From Oscillibacter sp. (GTDB lineage: Bacteria; Bacillota; Clostridia; Oscillospirales; Oscillospiraceae): DNA of 64,000 nucleotides. Below, in pieces: positions 54,512 to 64,000 of the stretch (positions are counted from its first letter, which is position 1; every line of letters starts with the position of its first letter). The stretch spans positions 1-64,000 of the forward strand of contig JALCRQ010000004.1 in NCBI GenBank assembly GCA_022652655.1, in the 5' to 3' direction. The notes under the pieces were generated by a model that made no database searches, was not told the DNA's origin, and saw only the letters and a list, made by a program, of their open reading frames with translations. The translations under genes were made by a program, and so were the position numbers.

Positions 54512-54639
54512 GAGATATTTCAAGTGCAATTGTTGACCACCCCTAATAGTTGCCCTATAATTATTAAAGAACATCCAGATATTGGTCAATAAGGTTGCAT
54601 TTTTAGTGCATTAATGGCTGAATGGGAGGGATTTATAAC

Positions 54640-55977
54640 ATGGCACTGGATTCTAAACTGTATTTGCATGATTCTGACAAGGCTGCGATGGCAGCGCTTA
54701 AAGCAATCCCGGGCTTTTCACAGGTCATGAAGACCTTTATGAAAATTTGGAGTGAGCAGCAGTTAAGGCTGGTCAATATGTCAACAAATCTGCATTTGAG
54801 TGAAAACCAAATGTCAAAGTATTATCATATGCTACCACCAATCTGCAAGAAACTGGGAATTAATATTCCGGATTTATTTGTAGAGTTGGATGTGACTCCA
54901 AATGCATATACATACGGCGATGCAAAGCCATTTATTGTGATTACATCTGGGTTATTTGAAACGTTGCCAGATGAATTGATTCCAACGGTTTTGGCGCATG
55001 AATGCGGACACATTGCCTGTCACCATACTCTATACACCACTATGGGGCGTACTGTTTTAACCGGAGCATCAGAATTCCTATCTGGTTTGGGGACTCTTGC
55101 TTTATATCCCATTCAGCTTGCTTTTGCTTATTGGATGCGATGCAGTGAATTTTCTGCTGACAGAGCTGCTATTATTTGCGATGGTTCGTCAGAGAAAACC
55201 ACAGAAGTCATGATGCGTTTTGCCGGATATGACAAAGATATAATGGCGGATGCAAATGTTGAAGTTTTTATGGCTCAGGCTCACGAATACAAAGAACTTG
55301 TAAACAGCAATGCATGGAATAAAACCCTGGAGTTTATTCTTTTCCAGAATTACAGTCATCCTTTAAACGCAGTTCGTGCATACGAAGGAAGAAAGTGGGG
55401 GCAGAGTGAACGGTATCAAAATATTATTGAATATGTAAATGCAGAGTCCTCTGATGCGGATGATGCGGAGAGCAAACTTCCGGTTGAAGTATCGCTTAAG
55501 AAAATGGTCGGCAAAAATATAGCGGACATTCAGGCTAAGCTTTTAACTCTGGGTTTTACAGACATTAACACTGTGAGAAATACCGATGTCGGAAAAGCCA
55601 AAGAAGGGAGCATTCTCTCCATTACAATAAATGACTCTGCGGAAGACGGGTGGTATAAACGCAGTGATAGCGTCGTGATTGAATATTTTGAATCCAAAAC
55701 AGACGCAGAAATTGCATTGCAACATCCCGGCGACATAAAAATTGATAAAAGCTACAAGTATTACTTGGGAAAAAGTTGTGAAGAAGCAAAACTTGAACTG
55801 GAACAAATAGGATTTAAGAAAATAGCAATTAAGGAAATGGCTATGTCCAAGCTTGGCCTTGGAGAAAAAGAAAACTGTGTGGCTAAAATTATCATAAATG
55901 GGCAAGAAAAATTTGATAAGGACACGTGGCTTCCCGAAAAATCGGATGTGGTCATTTATCGCTATACACGTGTATAA
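54640..55977 (+). CDS. M48 family metallopeptidase with C-terminal PASTA-like domains
   Basis: HECGHIACHH zinc motif, CSEFSADRAAI third-ligand motif; PASTA-like repeats VGKNIADIQAKLLTLGFTDI and LGKSCEEAKLELEQIGFKKI. Confidence 0.88.
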   Translation: MALDSKLYLHDSDKAAMAALKAIPGFSQVMKTFMKIWSEQQLRLVNMSTNLHLSENQMSKYYHMLPPICKKLGINIPDLFVELDVTPNAYTYGDAKPFIVITSGLFETLPDELIPTVLAHECGHIACHHTLYTTMGRTVLTGASEFLSGLGTLALYPIQLAFAYWMRCSEFSADRAAIICDGSSEKTTEVMMRFAGYDKDIMADANVEVFMAQAHEYKELVNSNAWNKTLEFILFQNYSHPLNAVRAYEGRKWGQSERYQNIIEYVNAESSDADDAESKLPVEVSLKKMVGKNIADIQAKLLTLGFTDINTVRNTDVGKAKEGSILSITINDSAEDGWYKRSDSVVIEYFESKTDAEIALQHPGDIKIDKSYKYYLGKSCEEAKLELEQIGFKKIAIKEMAMSKLGLGEKENCVAKIIINGQEKFDKDTWLPEKSDVVIYRYTRV

Positions 55978-56065
55978 CGTTTAATCTACTGTGCTATTTT
56001 GTCGCACATTATGGCTCAACGAGTCTTCGTTGAAATAACAGGAAAAACGAAGGGGGCTCTCAGTG

Positions 56066-56824
56066 ATGATGACATCACTCACACAATTTAGTCCAGAAGT
56101 AGCTGAACAACTCAAATTCTATGTATATCGTCTGATAGACCCACGGAACGGGCAGACATTCTATGTTGGTAAAGGCAAGGGAAACCGTGTATTTGCTCAT
56201 GTCTATGATGCACTGAAGGATTATGCGGGCGTCAACTACGAGCAATCCGATGATTCTGACAGTGCCAAGATACGGAGAATTCGTGAAATCCGAAATGCCG
56301 GTTTGGAGGTTATTCATGTCATACAGCGCTGGGGTATGGATGAAGCGACCGCATTTCAGGTTGAGTCCGCAGTAATTGATTGTTACCCTGGCCTTTCCAA
56401 TGCCATCTTCGGGCACAATGCAGACTTCGGAGTATCCAACGCCATTCAACTTGAATCTCTGCTTTCACTCAAGCCATATAACGAGCCAGACTTCCCATAT
56501 ATGATAATTAAGACCACCCAGGACCGCATCGACTGTGAATACTGCAATGGCAGTTTGTATGAAGCAACACGCTACGCATGGAAAATCAACGTTAAAAAGG
56601 CCCAAAAATACCCCTACGTTTTTGCAGTAGTGAATGGTATTGTGAAAGCTGTCTATAAGGTGCATTTCTGGGAGCCTGCTCCTAACCTTGAGGGCCGGTA
56701 TCAATTTGAGGGAGAACCGGTGGGTGAATCGTTTCAGGAACCATTTGTCAAGAAGCGTATTCCAAGTAACTACTCCCGTAGGGGAATGGCCTCACCTGTT
56801 CTGTATTCCCTAAATGGCAAGTAA
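56066..56824 (+). CDS. LEM-3-like GIY-YIG domain protein (COG3680 type)
   Basis: KFYVYRLIDPRNGQTFYVGKGKGNRVFAHVYDAL...KIRRIREIRNAGLEVIHVIQRWGMDEATAFQVESAVID. Confidence 0.85.
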   Translation: MMTSLTQFSPEVAEQLKFYVYRLIDPRNGQTFYVGKGKGNRVFAHVYDALKDYAGVNYEQSDDSDSAKIRRIREIRNAGLEVIHVIQRWGMDEATAFQVESAVIDCYPGLSNAIFGHNADFGVSNAIQLESLLSLKPYNEPDFPYMIIKTTQDRIDCEYCNGSLYEATRYAWKINVKKAQKYPYVFAVVNGIVKAVYKVHFWEPAPNLEGRYQFEGEPVGESFQEPFVKKRIPSNYSRRGMASPVLYSLNGK

Positions 56825-57194: not shown

Positions 57195-57968
57195 TCATGG
57201 AGCGACAATGATTTCCACTCCCAATTTCTGAATCATCTCCAATTCCTTTTTGGGGGCTTCCGAATCCGTCACAAGCACATCGATTGTCCGCAGATCCCAC
57301 GAGACAAACAACGCTTCTTTTCCAAATTTACTGTGGTCAATCAATGCCACGGTGCGGTCCGCCCGGGCAATCAGCTGGCGCTTTACATCAATGACCGCCT
57401 CGTTGAATTCCGTGATCCCGCTTTTCAGAGTAATGCCGTCGGCACTGCCGATAAACAGGTCGATCGACGCAAAGTTATTGAGAAAATTTCGGGCAAACAC
57501 GCCGCTTGTCACCACCTCGTTGGGCATGACCAGGCCGCCGATACAGTAGATCTTATGGGAAGTGTTGCGGGCCAGCTCGCTGGAAATCAGCAGTGAATTG
57601 GTAATGATGGAAAGATTCTTTTTTGCGTTGAGCAGCCGGGAAAGCTCATAGGTAGTTGTACCGATATCCAGGGCAATCACAGCATTGTCCGGAATCAGTT
57701 CCAGCGCCCGGGTAACAATGTGCACCTTCTCCGCGTGGGCGTGCGCCAGGCGAACATTCCAGGTTTCCAGCGAGGTCATATGCATGGAATCAGATACCAG
57801 GCTGATACCGCCGTAGACCTTTTTGATGAGGCCTGCCTGCTCCATGGTATTGATATCTCTGCGAATGGTTTCAATCGAAACGTTGAAATGGGATGCCAGA
57901 TTCTCGGTTTTAAGACTATGCTCCAGAAGCAAAAGCTTCAGAATTTCATTTTGCCGCCTGTACTTCAT
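57195..57968 (-). CDS. DeoR/GlpR family transcriptional regulator
   Basis: MKYRRQNEILKLLLLEHSLKTENLASHFNVSIETIRRDINTMEQAGLIKKVYGG; sugar-phosphate-sensing domain. Confidence 0.95.
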   Translation of the reverse strand: MKYRRQNEILKLLLLEHSLKTENLASHFNVSIETIRRDINTMEQAGLIKKVYGGISLVSDSMHMTSLETWNVRLAHAHAEKVHIVTRALELIPDNAVIALDIGTTTYELSRLLNAKKNLSIITNSLLISSELARNTSHKIYCIGGLVMPNEVVTSGVFARNFLNNFASIDLFIGSADGITLKSGITEFNEAVIDVKRQLIARADRTVALIDHSKFGKEALFVSWDLRTIDVLVTDSEAPKKELEMIQKLGVEIIVAP

Positions 57969-58221: not shown

Positions 58222-59724
58222 ATGAAGCGTTACTTTTTAGGAATCGACCAGGGCACAACAGGAAGCACTGCTCTGCTGATTGATGAGCAGTGGCAAGTCA
58301 TTGCAACCAAAAATGTTGAACACACACAAATCTACCCCAAGCCCGGATGGGTTGAGCATGATCCGGAGGAAATCTGGGAAGCGATTCAGACGGCGGTGGC
58401 CGCCGTTCTCAAAGAGGCGATGGTCAGCCCGTCACAGATTGTTTCCATCGGCATTGACAACCAGGGAGAAACCTGTATGGTATGGGATAAGCATACCGGG
58501 AAACCGGTCCATAACGCGCTGGTATGGCAGGATCGCCGGACGGCGGCGTATGCGGATGAGTTAAACGAAAAGTACGGCAAGATGATTACGAAAAAGACCG
58601 GTCTGGGGCCGGATGCCTACTTCTCCGCCACAAAGATCAAATGGATTCTGGACAATGTGGAGGGCGTCCGGGAGAAAATCAAGACAGGTGACATTCTGGC
58701 AGGCACGCTGGACTCCTATCTGATCTGGCGATTTACCGGCGGCAAGGCATTTATCACCGACACCAGCACTGCGTCCCGCACCATGATGATGGATCTGAAA
58801 AAGGGTGAGTGGGATCAGGAGCTGCTGGACATTTACAACATCCCCAGGGAAATCCTGCCCAAGATTTCCAATTCCAGTGAAGTGTATGGCTATACCACAC
58901 CGGAGACCTTTTTCGGCCAGCGGATTCCCGTGGCCGCGTGCATCACCGATGCCCTGGCAGCCATGCTGGCCCAGGGGTGCCTGGACAAGGGAGACATCAA
59001 AACTACCTATGGCACCGGCTGCTTCATGTACATCAATCTGGGACACGAGGTGGTATATTCCAAGGGCGGGCTCATCACCGTGTCCTCCTGGCAGGTCAAC
59101 AATGAGATCACCTATGCCTTTGACGGCGGCGTTTACATTGCCGGAGCGGCCATCCAGTGGCTGCGGGATAAGCTGAAAATCATTAAGAACTCCGCTGAGA
59201 CTGAAAAAATCGCCCTGTCGGTAAAGGATACCGGCGGCGTCTATTTTGTCCCTGCCTTTGCCGGCCTGGCTGCGCCCCATTGGGATCAGTACGCCCGCGG
59301 AATGATAATCGGTATTACCGGCGGCACCACCAGCGACCAAATTGTCCGCGCTACGCTGGAGAGCATTGCCTTCCAGGTCTACGATAACGCCCAGGTCATG
59401 AAAACGGATTCCGGCTATAATTTTGCCACTATGAAGGTGGACGGCGGCCCGGTGGTGAACCAGTTCCTGATGCAGTTCCAGGCAGACCTGCTGGGAACCC
59501 CTGTGGATGTGCCTGTGGTAACGGAAATGACAGCTTACGGTGCGGCCTTTTTGGCGGCACTGGCGGTGGGCGAATTTAATAGCATCAATGACGTGCGCAA
59601 GTGCTGGAAGCTGCAGCGGCGCTATGAGCCGCACATGAGCAAGGACGAGCGGGATGAACGTCTGGGACAATGGCATCGGGCCGTGGAGCGGTGCAAAAAC
59701 TGGGAAATTCCAAACAGGAGTTGA
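58222..59724 (+). CDS. glpK: FGGY-family kinase, glycerol kinase-like
   Basis: MKRYFLGIDQGTTGSTALLIDE; TYGTGCFMYINLG; GAAIQWLRDKLKII; GlpK-like over its whole length, but pocket residues differ (see findings). Confidence 0.85.
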   Translation: MKRYFLGIDQGTTGSTALLIDEQWQVIATKNVEHTQIYPKPGWVEHDPEEIWEAIQTAVAAVLKEAMVSPSQIVSIGIDNQGETCMVWDKHTGKPVHNALVWQDRRTAAYADELNEKYGKMITKKTGLGPDAYFSATKIKWILDNVEGVREKIKTGDILAGTLDSYLIWRFTGGKAFITDTSTASRTMMMDLKKGEWDQELLDIYNIPREILPKISNSSEVYGYTTPETFFGQRIPVAACITDALAAMLAQGCLDKGDIKTTYGTGCFMYINLGHEVVYSKGGLITVSSWQVNNEITYAFDGGVYIAGAAIQWLRDKLKIIKNSAETEKIALSVKDTGGVYFVPAFAGLAAPHWDQYARGMIIGITGGTTSDQIVRATLESIAFQVYDNAQVMKTDSGYNFATMKVDGGPVVNQFLMQFQADLLGTPVDVPVVTEMTAYGAAFLAALAVGEFNSINDVRKCWKLQRRYEPHMSKDERDERLGQWHRAVERCKNWEIPNRS

Positions 59725-59730
59725 TCGAAC

Positions 59731-61200
59731 GTGTATTATAGTACAGATATCGTGATTATCGGCGCAGGCGCCGTGGGTACAGCTATTGCCAGAGAATTGT
59801 CCAAATACCATGTCCGCGTGATGGTGGTGGACAAACGGGATGACGTGGGCGGCGATGCCTCTAAATCCAACAGCTCCATTATCTGCAGCGGGTTTGACTG
59901 CCCGCCTGACACACTGGAGTCTCAGCTTTGCCTGTCGGAGCGCGCCATGATCGAGCAGGTGGTGAAGGAGCTGGACGTACCCTTCCGGGTCTGCGGTGCC
60001 ATTATGCCGGCAGTCACCCAGCAGCAGATGGATATCCTGCCCCACATCTATGAGGATGCTTACGCCAATCACGTCTATGATGTGGAATACGTATCTCCTG
60101 AGCAAATTTTGAAAATGGAACCGGAGATCAATCCGGATGTGCTGGGAGGCCTATATATTCCGCGGGATGCCGTCATTGATCCGTTTTTACTGGTGGTGGC
60201 CCAGGCCGAGAACGCGGCGGAAAACGGCGTGCAATTCTTGCTGAACACCAGGGTCGTGGGGATTTCCGTGGAACATGGTCAGGTGCAGGCGGTGGAAACC
60301 ACCGGCGGTACCATCCGCACCAAGTACGTTATCAATGCCGCGGGACTGTTTTGCGATGAAATTGCAAAGATGGTCGATGAGTGCGACGGCTTTGTGGTGA
60401 AGCCGCGGAAGGGGCAATTCTTCATTCTGGATAAGAACACACCCTGTAAAACCTCGCATATTGTCTATCCCATTCCCACGCCGGAAACCCGGGGCAAGCT
60501 GCTGCTGCAGACGATTCACGGCAATATGCTGCTGGGGCCCACGGCGGAGGATCTGGAGGACAAGGAAGACCACAGTGTCACCGCCGAGGAACTGGAAGGG
60601 GTGGAACGGGACTGCAAAAAGCTGGTTCCCAACATCCGGGTGCAGGACACCATCACACAGTATTGCGGTCTGCGGCCCAATCGGATTCCGGCGGGCTTCC
60701 ACATTGGGTTTGGAAAGAAGACCCAGGGGTATTTTGGAATTTCCGGAATCCGCTCCACCGGCATTTCCACCAGTCTGGCCATTGCCAAATATGTAGTGAA
60801 GCAATTTCAGGACGCCGGTGTGAAGCTGGAGCGCAGCTTCACCTTCCAACCGCGGCGAACGGGAATTGAAAAATTCTCTGAGGCTAGCGACCCGCGGCGG
60901 GCGGAGCTCATTGCGAAAAACCCCCTGTATGGCCGGGTGATCTGCCGCTGCGAAACCGTGACGGAAGCTGAAATTGTGGAGGCCATTCACAGACCTGTGG
61001 GCGCCCGTACAGTGGATGCGGTGAAGCGTCGGGTTCGGGCCGGAACGGGGCGGTGCCAGGGTGGCTTTTGCGGTCCCAAGGTCATTGAAATTCTCGCCCG
61101 GGAGCTGCGGATTCCCGCATCGGAGATTGAAAAGAATTTGGCGGGATCCTATATGTTGACCGGTCAGATTCGCGGAGAGGGGGAACAGGGCAATGCGTGA
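59731..61200 (+). CDS. FAD-dependent oxidoreductase, GlpA-like with C-terminal BFD [2Fe-2S] domain
   Basis: STDIVIIGAGAVGTAIARELSKYHVRVMVVDKRDDVGGDASKSNS; VICRCETVTEAEI...GTGRCQGGFCGPKV. Confidence 0.9.
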   Translation: MYYSTDIVIIGAGAVGTAIARELSKYHVRVMVVDKRDDVGGDASKSNSSIICSGFDCPPDTLESQLCLSERAMIEQVVKELDVPFRVCGAIMPAVTQQQMDILPHIYEDAYANHVYDVEYVSPEQILKMEPEINPDVLGGLYIPRDAVIDPFLLVVAQAENAAENGVQFLLNTRVVGISVEHGQVQAVETTGGTIRTKYVINAAGLFCDEIAKMVDECDGFVVKPRKGQFFILDKNTPCKTSHIVYPIPTPETRGKLLLQTIHGNMLLGPTAEDLEDKEDHSVTAEELEGVERDCKKLVPNIRVQDTITQYCGLRPNRIPAGFHIGFGKKTQGYFGISGIRSTGISTSLAIAKYVVKQFQDAGVKLERSFTFQPRRTGIEKFSEASDPRRAELIAKNPLYGRVICRCETVTEAEIVEAIHRPVGARTVDAVKRRVRAGTGRCQGGFCGPKVIEILARELRIPASEIEKNLAGSYMLTGQIRGEGEQGNA

Positions 61201-62455
61201 AATGAAGTATGATGTTGCGGTGATCGGCGCAGGCCCTGGAGGCCTTGCCGCTGCCGCTGCCGCAAAGAAGCAGGGCGCCGGAAAAGTGCTGATTATTGAG
61301 CGGGATACAGCAGCAGGCGGAATTTTGCAGCAGTGCATCCACGCCGGATTCGGATTGACCTATTTCAATGAGGAGCTTACAGGCCCGGAATATGCAGGGC
61401 GTTTTGCCAAGCGTGCTGAAGAGGCGGGCGCGGAGCTGATGACGGACACGATGGTGCTGAAGCTGTCGGAGGATGGCAGCGTGGTGTGCAGCAATCCGCA
61501 AAGCGGAGTCATTCGGGTTCACGCTGGAGCGGTGGTGCTGGCCATGGGATGCAGGGAGCGCACGCGGTTTAATCTCAAGATCCCCGGAACCCGTCCGGCG
61601 GGAATTTATACTGCCGGCACCGCGCAGCGGCTGATTAACCGCCAAAATGAGATGGTTGGCAAAAAAATCGTTATTTTAGGTTCCGGCGATATTGGCATGA
61701 TCATGGCGCGCCGCATGACGCTGGAAGGCGCGCAGGTGGAGGCCGTGGTTGAAATCATGAGTTATCTGGCGGGCCTTACGCGGAACAAGGTGCAGTGTCT
61801 GGATGATTTCGGAATTCCGCTGCTGCTGGAACACACTGTTACCCGCATTGTGGGCGAGCGCCGCATTGAGGGCGTGTGGATTGCGGCGGTAGATGCACAC
61901 AAAAAGCCGCTTCCCGAGACAGAGCACTTTATCGCCTGCGACACGCTGCTTCTGTCTGTGGGGCTGCTGCCGGAAAACGAACTGACCCGAGCTGCGGGCA
62001 TCGTCATGTCGCCCGTCACCAACGGCCCCGAGGTCAATCAGTATATGCAGACCTCTTGCCCTGCCGTTTTTGCCTGCGGAAACGTGGTGCATGTCAACGA
62101 TCTTGCGGACAACGTGTCCACGGAAAGCGAACTGGCCGGCACCGCTGCCGCCCAATACGCGGCCGGGACGCTTCCGGCGGCGGAGGGATTTGCCCACTGC
62201 CTGCCGGGCCGTGGAGTTCGCTATGTCTGCCCCCAACACATTGCCGTCCATGCAGGCAGCTGCCCGGTGCGGCTTTATTTCCGGGTACTCTCTCCCGGTG
62301 GAAAAACAAACCTTCGGGCTGTCTGCGGTCAACAGATTTTAGCCGAGAGAACCGTCCTTCGGGTCAGCCCCGGTGAAATGGAGCATTTGGATCTGGATGC
62401 CGCGGAACTGGGCAATCAGGAGATCCGTGTAGAAGCAGAGGAGGCGGAGAGATAA
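61193..62455 (+). CDS. NAD(P)/FAD-dependent oxidoreductase, GlpB-like position
   Basis: MREMKYDVAVIGAGPGGLAAAAAAKKQGAGKVLIIERDTAAGGILQQCIH; overlaps the previous gene. Confidence 0.9.
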   Translation: MREMKYDVAVIGAGPGGLAAAAAAKKQGAGKVLIIERDTAAGGILQQCIHAGFGLTYFNEELTGPEYAGRFAKRAEEAGAELMTDTMVLKLSEDGSVVCSNPQSGVIRVHAGAVVLAMGCRERTRFNLKIPGTRPAGIYTAGTAQRLINRQNEMVGKKIVILGSGDIGMIMARRMTLEGAQVEAVVEIMSYLAGLTRNKVQCLDDFGIPLLLEHTVTRIVGERRIEGVWIAAVDAHKKPLPETEHFIACDTLLLSVGLLPENELTRAAGIVMSPVTNGPEVNQYMQTSCPAVFACGNVVHVNDLADNVSTESELAGTAAAQYAAGTLPAAEGFAHCLPGRGVRYVCPQHIAVHAGSCPVRLYFRVLSPGGKTNLRAVCGQQILAERTVLRVSPGEMEHLDLDAAELGNQEIRVEAEEAER

Positions 62456-62820
62456 TGCGTCAGCAGGAGATTATCTGTACGGTCTGCCCTATGGGCTGCC
62501 ACATCCGAGTCACCGGCAGCGATGACCAGATCCAGTCATTGGAGGGATACACCTGCCGCCGGGGAGAACAGTATGCCCGCAGCGAGTTTGTCTGCCCGAT
62601 GCGGACGCTCACCACCACTGTGCGAGTGGAAAACAGCACAGAGCCGCTGCTGGCGGTTCGCACGGCTGGACCGATTCCGAAAGAGAAGCTTTTTGACTGC
62701 ATGGGACTGATTCGCACAGCGGTATTTCATGCACCTGTTGCGTTGCATCAGATTCTGATTTCCAATCTTGGGGGAACCGGTGTGGATCTCATTTCCTGTG
62801 CAGAGAGAAAGGAGCGCTGA
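62455..62820 (+). CDS. DUF1667 domain-containing protein
   Basis: ICTVCPMGCHIRV...GYTCRRGEQYARSEFVCPMRTLTTTVRV. Confidence 0.9.
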   Translation: MRQQEIICTVCPMGCHIRVTGSDDQIQSLEGYTCRRGEQYARSEFVCPMRTLTTTVRVENSTEPLLAVRTAGPIPKEKLFDCMGLIRTAVFHAPVALHQILISNLGGTGVDLISCAERKER

Positions 62821-62821
62821 A

Positions 62822-63121
62822 ATGTCCAAACAGGTAAAAATTACTGTGCTGAAGCGGCTGCTGATGGAAGATCTCATCGCACAATATGCACCCGGCCCGG
62901 TGGAAAAATGCGGGAAAATGCCAGAGGGCGCCACTTACATTACGGACGGACGTACCTGTCCCGAGGGATTTTGCCCATGGGCCTGGGCGGATGTGTTCAA
63001 GGATGTGCTTTTGGTTCGCCAGGACGCCACCTGCTATACCAAAGACCGAAAAGGCATGGTCACCGCCTGTACCGACGGTCTGCGTCCTGTCATCTTCCTG
63101 ATAGAGCCTTATGACCCGTGA
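62822..63121 (+). CDS. TIGR04076 family protein
   Basis: VKITVLKRLLMEDLIAQYA...CPEGFCPWAWADVFKDVLLVR...KDRKGMVTACTDGLRPVIFLIE. Confidence 0.75.
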   Translation: MSKQVKITVLKRLLMEDLIAQYAPGPVEKCGKMPEGATYITDGRTCPEGFCPWAWADVFKDVLLVRQDATCYTKDRKGMVTACTDGLRPVIFLIEPYDP

Positions 63122-63165
63122 TATTTTGCGAACACCTCAATTTTAATATTAGGGGGGCGTTTTCC

Positions 63166-64000
63166 TTGACATTTAACGATATCATTCTATGGATTGTGGC
63201 CATCGGCGTCGTGATTGGCGGCGTGGATAAGCTGCTGGGAAACAAATTCGGTCTAGGCTCGAAATTTGATGACGGGTTCAATGCCATGGGCCCCCTGGCG
63301 CTGTCGGTAGCGGGCATCGTTGTGCTGGCACCTGTGCTGGCAACCTGGCTGCAGCCGGTTTTGGTGCCTTTGTTTGGGCTGATGGATGCCGATCCCGCCA
63401 TGTTCGCCGCTATCATTGCCAACGATATGGGCGGATATTCTCTGGCAATGTCCCTGGCGCAGAATCATGAGATCGGTCTAATGTCCGGCTGCATTACGGC
63501 AGCCATGCTGGGATGCACACTGGTGTTTTCTCTGCCGGTGGGCCTGGGCCTCATTGAAAAATGCGACCGCCCCTATTTCTTTCAGGGCCTGCTGATTGGC
63601 CTGATTACCATTCCCGTGGGCAGCATCGTGGGCGGCTTGGTGGCCGGATTTAACACCAAATTGGTGCTGATTAACAATATTCCGATTATCATTTTTTCAC
63701 TGCTGCTGGTGCTGGGACTGAAATTTGCCCCCAATGCCATGAATAAGGGCGCCAGTGCGTTCGGTACATTTATTGGTTGGGTGGCGATTGTGGGTATTAT
63801 TATCGGCTCATTTACCCATCTCACCGGCGTCAAGATCCCGTTCTTTGAAAGCGCAGACACGATGCTTGCCGGCATGGAGATTGTCGCGTACGTAGTCATT
63901 GTGCTGATTGGCATTCTACCGGTGCTGGAGCTGCTGACCAGACTGCTGAACAAGGCGCTCCTGGCCTTTGGAAAACTCCTGGGCATTGATGCCGTGTCTG
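63166..64000 (+). CDS. eutH: EutH-like ethanolamine permease (truncated by window end)
   Basis: TTG 63166 after aggggggcg; LTFNDIILWIVAIGVVIGGVDKLLGNKFGLGSKFDDGFNAMGPLALSVAGIVVLAPVLATWL...ADPAMFAAIIANDMGGYSLA. Confidence 0.88.
   Translation, partial: MTFNDIILWIVAIGVVIGGVDKLLGNKFGLGSKFDDGFNAMGPLALSVAGIVVLAPVLATWLQPVLVPLFGLMDADPAMFAAIIANDMGGYSLAMSLAQNHEIGLMSGCITAAMLGCTLVFSLPVGLGLIEKCDRPYFFQGLLIGLITIPVGSIVGGLVAGFNTKLVLINNIPIIIFSLLLVLGLKFAPNAMNKGASAFGTFIGWVAIVGIIIGSFTHLTGVKIPFFESADTMLAGMEIVAYVVIVLIGILPVLELLTRLLNKALLAFGKLLGIDAVS

Follow-up and report, generated by a model that had tools for sequence, protein, structure and literature searches.

The window (the whole 64,000-nucleotide stretch of DNA analysed) carries near its end an operon in which a GlpK-like kinase gene is followed by GlpA-like, GlpB-like, DUF1667, TIGR04076 and EutH genes, with a divergent DeoR-family gene in front. 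The operon ends at contig position 64288, and genes outside the window were called with an ORF script. The features, in window coordinates, are:

57195 to 57968, minus strand: divergent DeoR-family regulator, about 257 amino acids from the ATG of MKYRRQ (PF08220 and PF00455, above cut-off)
58222 to 59724, plus strand: GlpK-like kinase of the FGGY family, 500 amino acids (NF000756 and TIGR01311, both above cut-off, and alignment)
59731 to 61200, plus strand: GlpA/GlpO-like FAD oxidoreductase (DAO) with a C-terminal BFD-like [2Fe-2S] domain (PF01266, PF04324)
61193 to 62455, plus strand: GlpB-like FAD/NAD(P) pyridine nucleotide-disulphide oxidoreductase (PF07992, 112.8 bits)
62455 to 62820, plus strand: cysteine-rich DUF1667 protein, probably an Fe-S partner (PF07892, 96.8 bits)
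62822 to 63121, plus strand: small TIGR04076 protein (53.5 bits, cut-off 33)
63118 to 64000, plus strand: EutH-type transporter running beyond the window end, the full gene reaching contig position 64288 (PF04346, 295.7 bits)

The ATG of the kinase ORF is preceded by AAAGGAGGG. The transporter is well above the PF04346 cut-off of 25, and its full 389 amino acids reach 450 bits on NF011666 (cut-off 482), which the EutH of a relative, L069, exceeds with 498.6. Upstream of the operon, 54622-56824 holds a matched M48-type peptidase, lengthened considerably at its C-terminus, and a protein that resembles a GIY-YIG nuclease by eye.

By profile the kinase is a glycerol kinase, with 675 bits on NF000756, 642.4 on TIGR01311 (equivalog cut-off 590.35) and both FGGY domains (PF00370, 255 bits; PF02782, 129 bits). 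It is about 46-50% identical to solved glycerol kinases. The first-pass annotation had claimed that two glycerol-contacting residues are replaced in it, and alignment with E. coli GlpK (from NC_000913, whose numbering is used throughout) bears this out. Arg83 is Gly (query Gly82), the ITNQRET of E. coli GlpK reading IDNQGET here (codon GGA, 58465-58467), and Gln246 is Ala (query Ala244), AGDQQAA reading ITDALAA (codon GCC, 58951-58953). The equivalents of Trp103, Tyr135 and Asp245, which had been thought kept, are retained, as are those of Glu84 and Phe270. Beyond the two sites already noticed, the query also has T80D (Asp79), R17T (Thr16) and E303D (Asp301). The flanks of both sites align without gaps, and an AlphaFold2 model with a pLDDT of 89.8 matches structures of glycerol-bound GlpKs at a TM of about 0.9; the alignment thus does not shift, and positions 83 and 246 are indeed pocket sites.

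GlpK has been described as an FGGY group with an active site unchanged in evolution, in which Arg83, Glu84, Tyr135, Asp245 and Phe270 are said to be identical (PMC3245297). The query has four of these five, with Gly replacing Arg83. Of the kinases aligned, 131 have Arg at position 83 and 40, the query among them, have Gly; none of the 131 ordinary GlpKs carries R83G. The Gly83 sequences, from Clostridia and scattered other phyla, co-vary at about ten further positions; the diagnostic columns include R17T, Q32Y, T80D, R83G, N185T, E303D, S305G, F307Y and G352A. Asp80 has exceptions, being Ala in L086, L093, L161 and L162. Q246A is not clade-wide: ITDALAA is found only in the query, L068, L074 and one copy of L073, the others having Gln. 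In the Plasmodium enzyme Arg83 touches glycerol and forms a salt bridge to Glu306 (PMC2680290). If, as appears, this Glu306 corresponds to E. coli Glu303, both salt-bridge partners would have changed together in the Gly83 clade.

In a tree built from an alignment with masked pocket columns, the 39 rows of the Gly83 group formed one side of a branch with SH-aLRT 100 and E. coli GlpK lay on the other side, so that the query does not branch within ordinary GlpKs. A search of 394 genomes from the same order gave seven places whose scores set them apart: even the lowest reached 717 bits, against 666 at most for other GlpKs. A contig scan of further genomes added members in Clostridia and a Siminovitchia, and in metagenome-assembled genomes labelled Bacteroidetes, Caldithrix, Neomarinimicrobiota, Acidobacteriota and KSB1. 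When 399 genomes were sampled across the phylum, the query was the one full clade member among the loci read; that sample also yielded two outlying Gly83 kinases (L161 and L162), which may, from their sequences, be intermediates, since they have Gly83 and Asp303 yet retain Arg17. Viral contigs contained one relative (44%). The sequences show a rare Gly83 clade separate from ordinary GlpKs, its residue changes and, as described below, its gene associations. In one locus, L194:2656-14574, a distant FGGY kinase, a GlpK-like kinase (45% to the query) and a Gly83-type kinase stand side by side, together with two GlpA-like genes, GlpB and DUF1667; it is possible that this cluster pictures the duplication.

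We compared the neighbourhoods of 29 clade loci with those of 50 ordinary GlpK loci, the latter mostly from Bacteroidota. EutH was nearby in 12 of the 29 clade loci and in none of the 50 ordinary ones (p about 1e-6), a GlpA-like gene in 14 of 29 versus 1 of 50, and a PhnW-like aminotransferase in 5 of 29 versus 0 of 50, with further cases in L034 and L195. About 12 of the 29 clade loci had neither EutH, the aminotransferase nor an APC permease nearby. Since the ordinary set is mostly from one phylum, we added a same-genome control, limited to seven pairs: in 0 of 7 did EutH, GlpA-like, DeoR or aminotransferase genes adjoin the ordinary GlpK. Variants of the query operon occur in G129, G407 (at a contig end), G523, G518, G357 and in named genomes. 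The GlpB-like gene is conserved in the operons of relatives, and the DeoR gene is also divergent in L035, L068, L073 and L074 and co-directional in others. The kinase and EutH of G129 are separated by about 8.7 kb and do not share an operon.

In another arrangement the kinase is accompanied by the PhnW-like aminotransferase and an APC permease (L034, L087, L088, L091 and, by tblastn, L092); L095 has the same aminotransferase with a different APC permease, and L195 has DeoR, kinase, aminotransferase and glutamate dehydrogenase in one run. This context appears at more than one place on the kinase tree. The permeases match, among others, amino-acid and ethanolamine permease models, all below cut-off. 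The aminotransferase scores 277-317 bits on TIGR03301 (cut-off 360.8); phosphonate use was rejected as its role, because it reaches none of the PhnW cut-offs and a search of six genomes gave no phosphonatase above cut-off. EutB, the ethanolamine ammonia-lyase, was missing in 18 of 19 genomes searched, including the query genome, which argues that EutH in those genomes does not serve classical ethanolamine use, and classical eut metabolism was set aside.

Several neighbourhoods contain other genes. At L035:15037-19001 and L071:4582-7749 the kinase operon has a Na+/solute symporter and a gamma-glutamyltransferase in its vicinity, which suggests a gamma-glutamyl conjugate as a possible further form of the incoming amine, and in L095 a proline-iminopeptidase-type hydrolase adjoins the kinase. 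The L075, L080 and L085 versions (Bacteroidetes, Caldithrix and Neomarinimicrobiota) have a GlpT/UhpT-like transporter, with a PhoD-like phosphatase in L075 and L080 and a long beta-propeller protein in L080 and L085; this context hints at a phosphodiester or lipid-headgroup source. In one subgroup (L072, L100 and L142) the clade kinase directly follows genes for a HAD-type hydrolase and a tyrosine-recombinase-type integrase, and no amine genes were seen there.

The partner oxidase of the query is far below the GlpA and GlpO cut-offs (NF033460, 248 versus 460 bits; also 161.7 versus 552.8). Aligned to the glycerophosphate oxidase mpGlpO (4X9M) and relatives, it retains the Arg320 and Ser348 positions but has Cys at His51, the residue proposed as the base for the C2-hydroxyl (PMC10726252). 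Most clade loci retain His51 in the oxidase. Among loci with a readable motif, Cys51 was found in exactly the four loci with an Ala246 kinase (the query, L068, L073 and L074). This coupling of Q246A in the kinase with His51 to Cys in the oxidase suggests that the subgroup would handle a second, related substrate whose oxidised group is not an alcohol. Clostridiales bacterium 1_7_47_FAA (L073:2953-14799) carries two adjoining paralogous operons, EutH-kinase-GlpA-GlpB-DUF1667-TIGR04076 and DeoR-kinase-GlpA-GlpB-DUF1667-EutH, one of the Gln246/His51 type and the other of the Ala246/Cys51 type.

The kinase could still phosphorylate glycerol, as a regulatory or low-affinity paralogue feeding a GlpA/GlpB-type glycerol-3-phosphate dehydrogenase. 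It scores above the GlpK equivalog cut-off, its overall fold and most contacts are retained, and similar GlpA, GlpB or DUF1667 genes adjoin some ordinary GlpKs (for example L013, L019 and L030). Yet Arg83, described as conserved (PMC3245297), is invariant in every ordinary GlpK aligned, and the genome already has an ordinary GlpK with Arg83 and Gln246 (C1:77106-78602, 44% identical to the query). The partner oxidase is also unlike those linked to ordinary GlpKs, from which it differs in the RSTG and GLRPNR motifs and in Cys for His51. We therefore regard continued use of glycerol as improbable. The earlier proposal that the substrate is something other than glycerol holds up to this extent: the group is monophyletic with a changed signature, its context is one of amine transport and deamination, and a separate ordinary GlpK is present.

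The same proposal allowed for a substrate larger than glycerol, such as a larger neutral polyol or ketose, with loss of the Arg83 side chain opening the pocket as in rhamnulokinase. E. coli RhaB, which acts on a larger sugar, does share the Asp80/Gly83 pair (GIDTWGV versus GIDNQGE here), which supports a larger substrate indirectly, and GlpA/GlpB partners would oxidise a polyol phosphate. As the pair also occurs in RhaB, it is not specific to amine binding, and we dropped the charge swap from Asp80 alone as proof of an amine substrate. However, unlike RhaB, the query retains Glu84, Trp103, Tyr135 and Phe270, residues suited to a C3 backbone. Most transporters adjoining these kinases belong to types for amines or amino acids (EutH, APC), most clade kinases had no isomerase or aldolase beside them, and a neutral polyol would leave an aminotransferase and a glutamate dehydrogenase without a role. 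A polyol or ketose thus seems quite unlikely, and the context argues instead for a small amino-alcohol.

We lean towards an operon that breaks down a small amino-alcohol, with the kinase catalysing the first step. The EutH-type carrier would import the amine and the GlpK-derived kinase would phosphorylate its hydroxyl with ATP. With Arg83, the grip on the glycerol hydroxyls, gone, Asp80, Glu84, Asp245 and Asp303 would remain in or near the pocket, which would suit a cationic ammonium group. The GlpA-like flavoprotein would then oxidise the phosphate ester, passing electrons to the GlpB-like and DUF1667 partners, while in other members the PhnW-like aminotransferase would remove the amino group instead; both the product and the electron path of the operon are putative. 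Against an amino-alcohol stand the scores above the NCBIfam glycerol kinase cut-offs and the His51 of most clade oxidases, which fits alcohol rather than amine oxidation. The Ala80 exceptions, the roughly 12 of 29 clade loci lacking all three amine-related genes and the distant EutH of G129 count against it as well. The context argument, too, is bounded by its controls, that is, by 50 ordinary loci mostly of Bacteroidota and seven same-genome pairs.

Candidate substrates are serinol (2-amino-1,3-propanediol), 3-amino-1,2-propanediol and ethanolamine, and any one of them, taken singly, is doubtful at best. Serinol would be the foremost single candidate for the subgroup of the query, because amine oxidation would not need the His base missing from the oxidase of that subgroup. 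Serinol phosphate would give dihydroxyacetone phosphate (DHAP) and ammonia by amine oxidation, and DHAP would be reached by the oxidase route or the transaminase route alike; published work describes transamination between DHAP and serinol phosphate in the biosynthetic direction (PMC3222319, PMC11800397, PMC9283133). 3-Amino-1,2-propanediol and other terminal amines would better fit the PhnW-like enzyme.

Ethanolamine would best fit the carrier. A narrower version of the amino-alcohol reading would have it as the substrate itself, converted to phosphoethanolamine and then, by oxidation or transamination, to glycolaldehyde phosphate without B12. This agrees with EutH and the ethanolamine-permease-like carriers, with the lack of EutB in 18 of 19 genomes noted above, and with the normal substrate of PhnW-like enzymes, 2-aminoethylphosphonate, a near-isostere of phosphoethanolamine. 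A GlpA-type oxidase, however, works at C2 of a phosphate with three carbons, and the loci read offer no evident sink for glycolaldehyde phosphate. Residues for binding further hydroxyls are also retained, namely Glu84 and Tyr135, with Gln246 in most members. Ethanolamine as such is thus an unlikely substrate.

Returning to amino-alcohols in general, it is possible, though somewhat short of an even chance, that these loci encode an undescribed B12-independent pathway, in which EutH import, a neofunctionalised GlpK and a neofunctionalised glycerol-3-phosphate oxidase or a PhnW-like transaminase would yield triose phosphate and ammonia in anaerobic and other bacteria, with the two adjacent paralogous operons of one genome serving two related amines. 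The open-access literature searched yielded no paper on an FGGY-family kinase for amino-alcohols; a subscription paper might exist. If the amino-alcohol reading is true, gut and sediment bacteria would have a kinase-first route for serinol- or ethanolamine-type amines that bypasses ethanolamine ammonia-lyase. Since Gly83 kinases pass glycerol kinase cut-offs, annotation pipelines would mislabel them, and the clade offers a natural set in which to study how specificity changes.

Compared with known systems, the kinase shares with bacterial GlpK the FGGY fold, the ATP/glycerol cleft, the catalytic Asp245, and Glu84, Trp103, Tyr135 and Phe270. It differs clade-wide in the replacement of Arg17, Thr80, Arg83, Glu303, Ser305 and Phe307 and in its neighbours, and within the query's subgroup in the replacement of Gln246. 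RhaB, which matches at positions 80 and 83, is distant overall, retains Arg17 and differs at the Glu84, Tyr135, Phe270 and Gln246 positions. The oxidase has the DAO fold, BFD-like domain and GlpB-like partner of GlpABC and type 2 glycerophosphate oxidases such as mpGlpO, from which it departs in its low scores and, in the query subgroup, in Cys51. The aminotransferase of relatives shares the class V fold of PhnW and differs from it in its sub-cut-off TIGR03301 scores and in its setting, as no phosphonatase exceeded cut-off in the six genomes. The serinol-phosphate/DHAP transaminases RtxA and Cj1437 link serinol phosphate to DHAP by PLP chemistry (PMC3222319, PMC11800397), although they act in the biosynthetic direction and the available portions of these papers mention no kinase or catabolic operon. 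With the eut system the operon shares the EutH-type carrier (PF04346); where EutB is missing, phosphorylation would replace the B12 lyase step.
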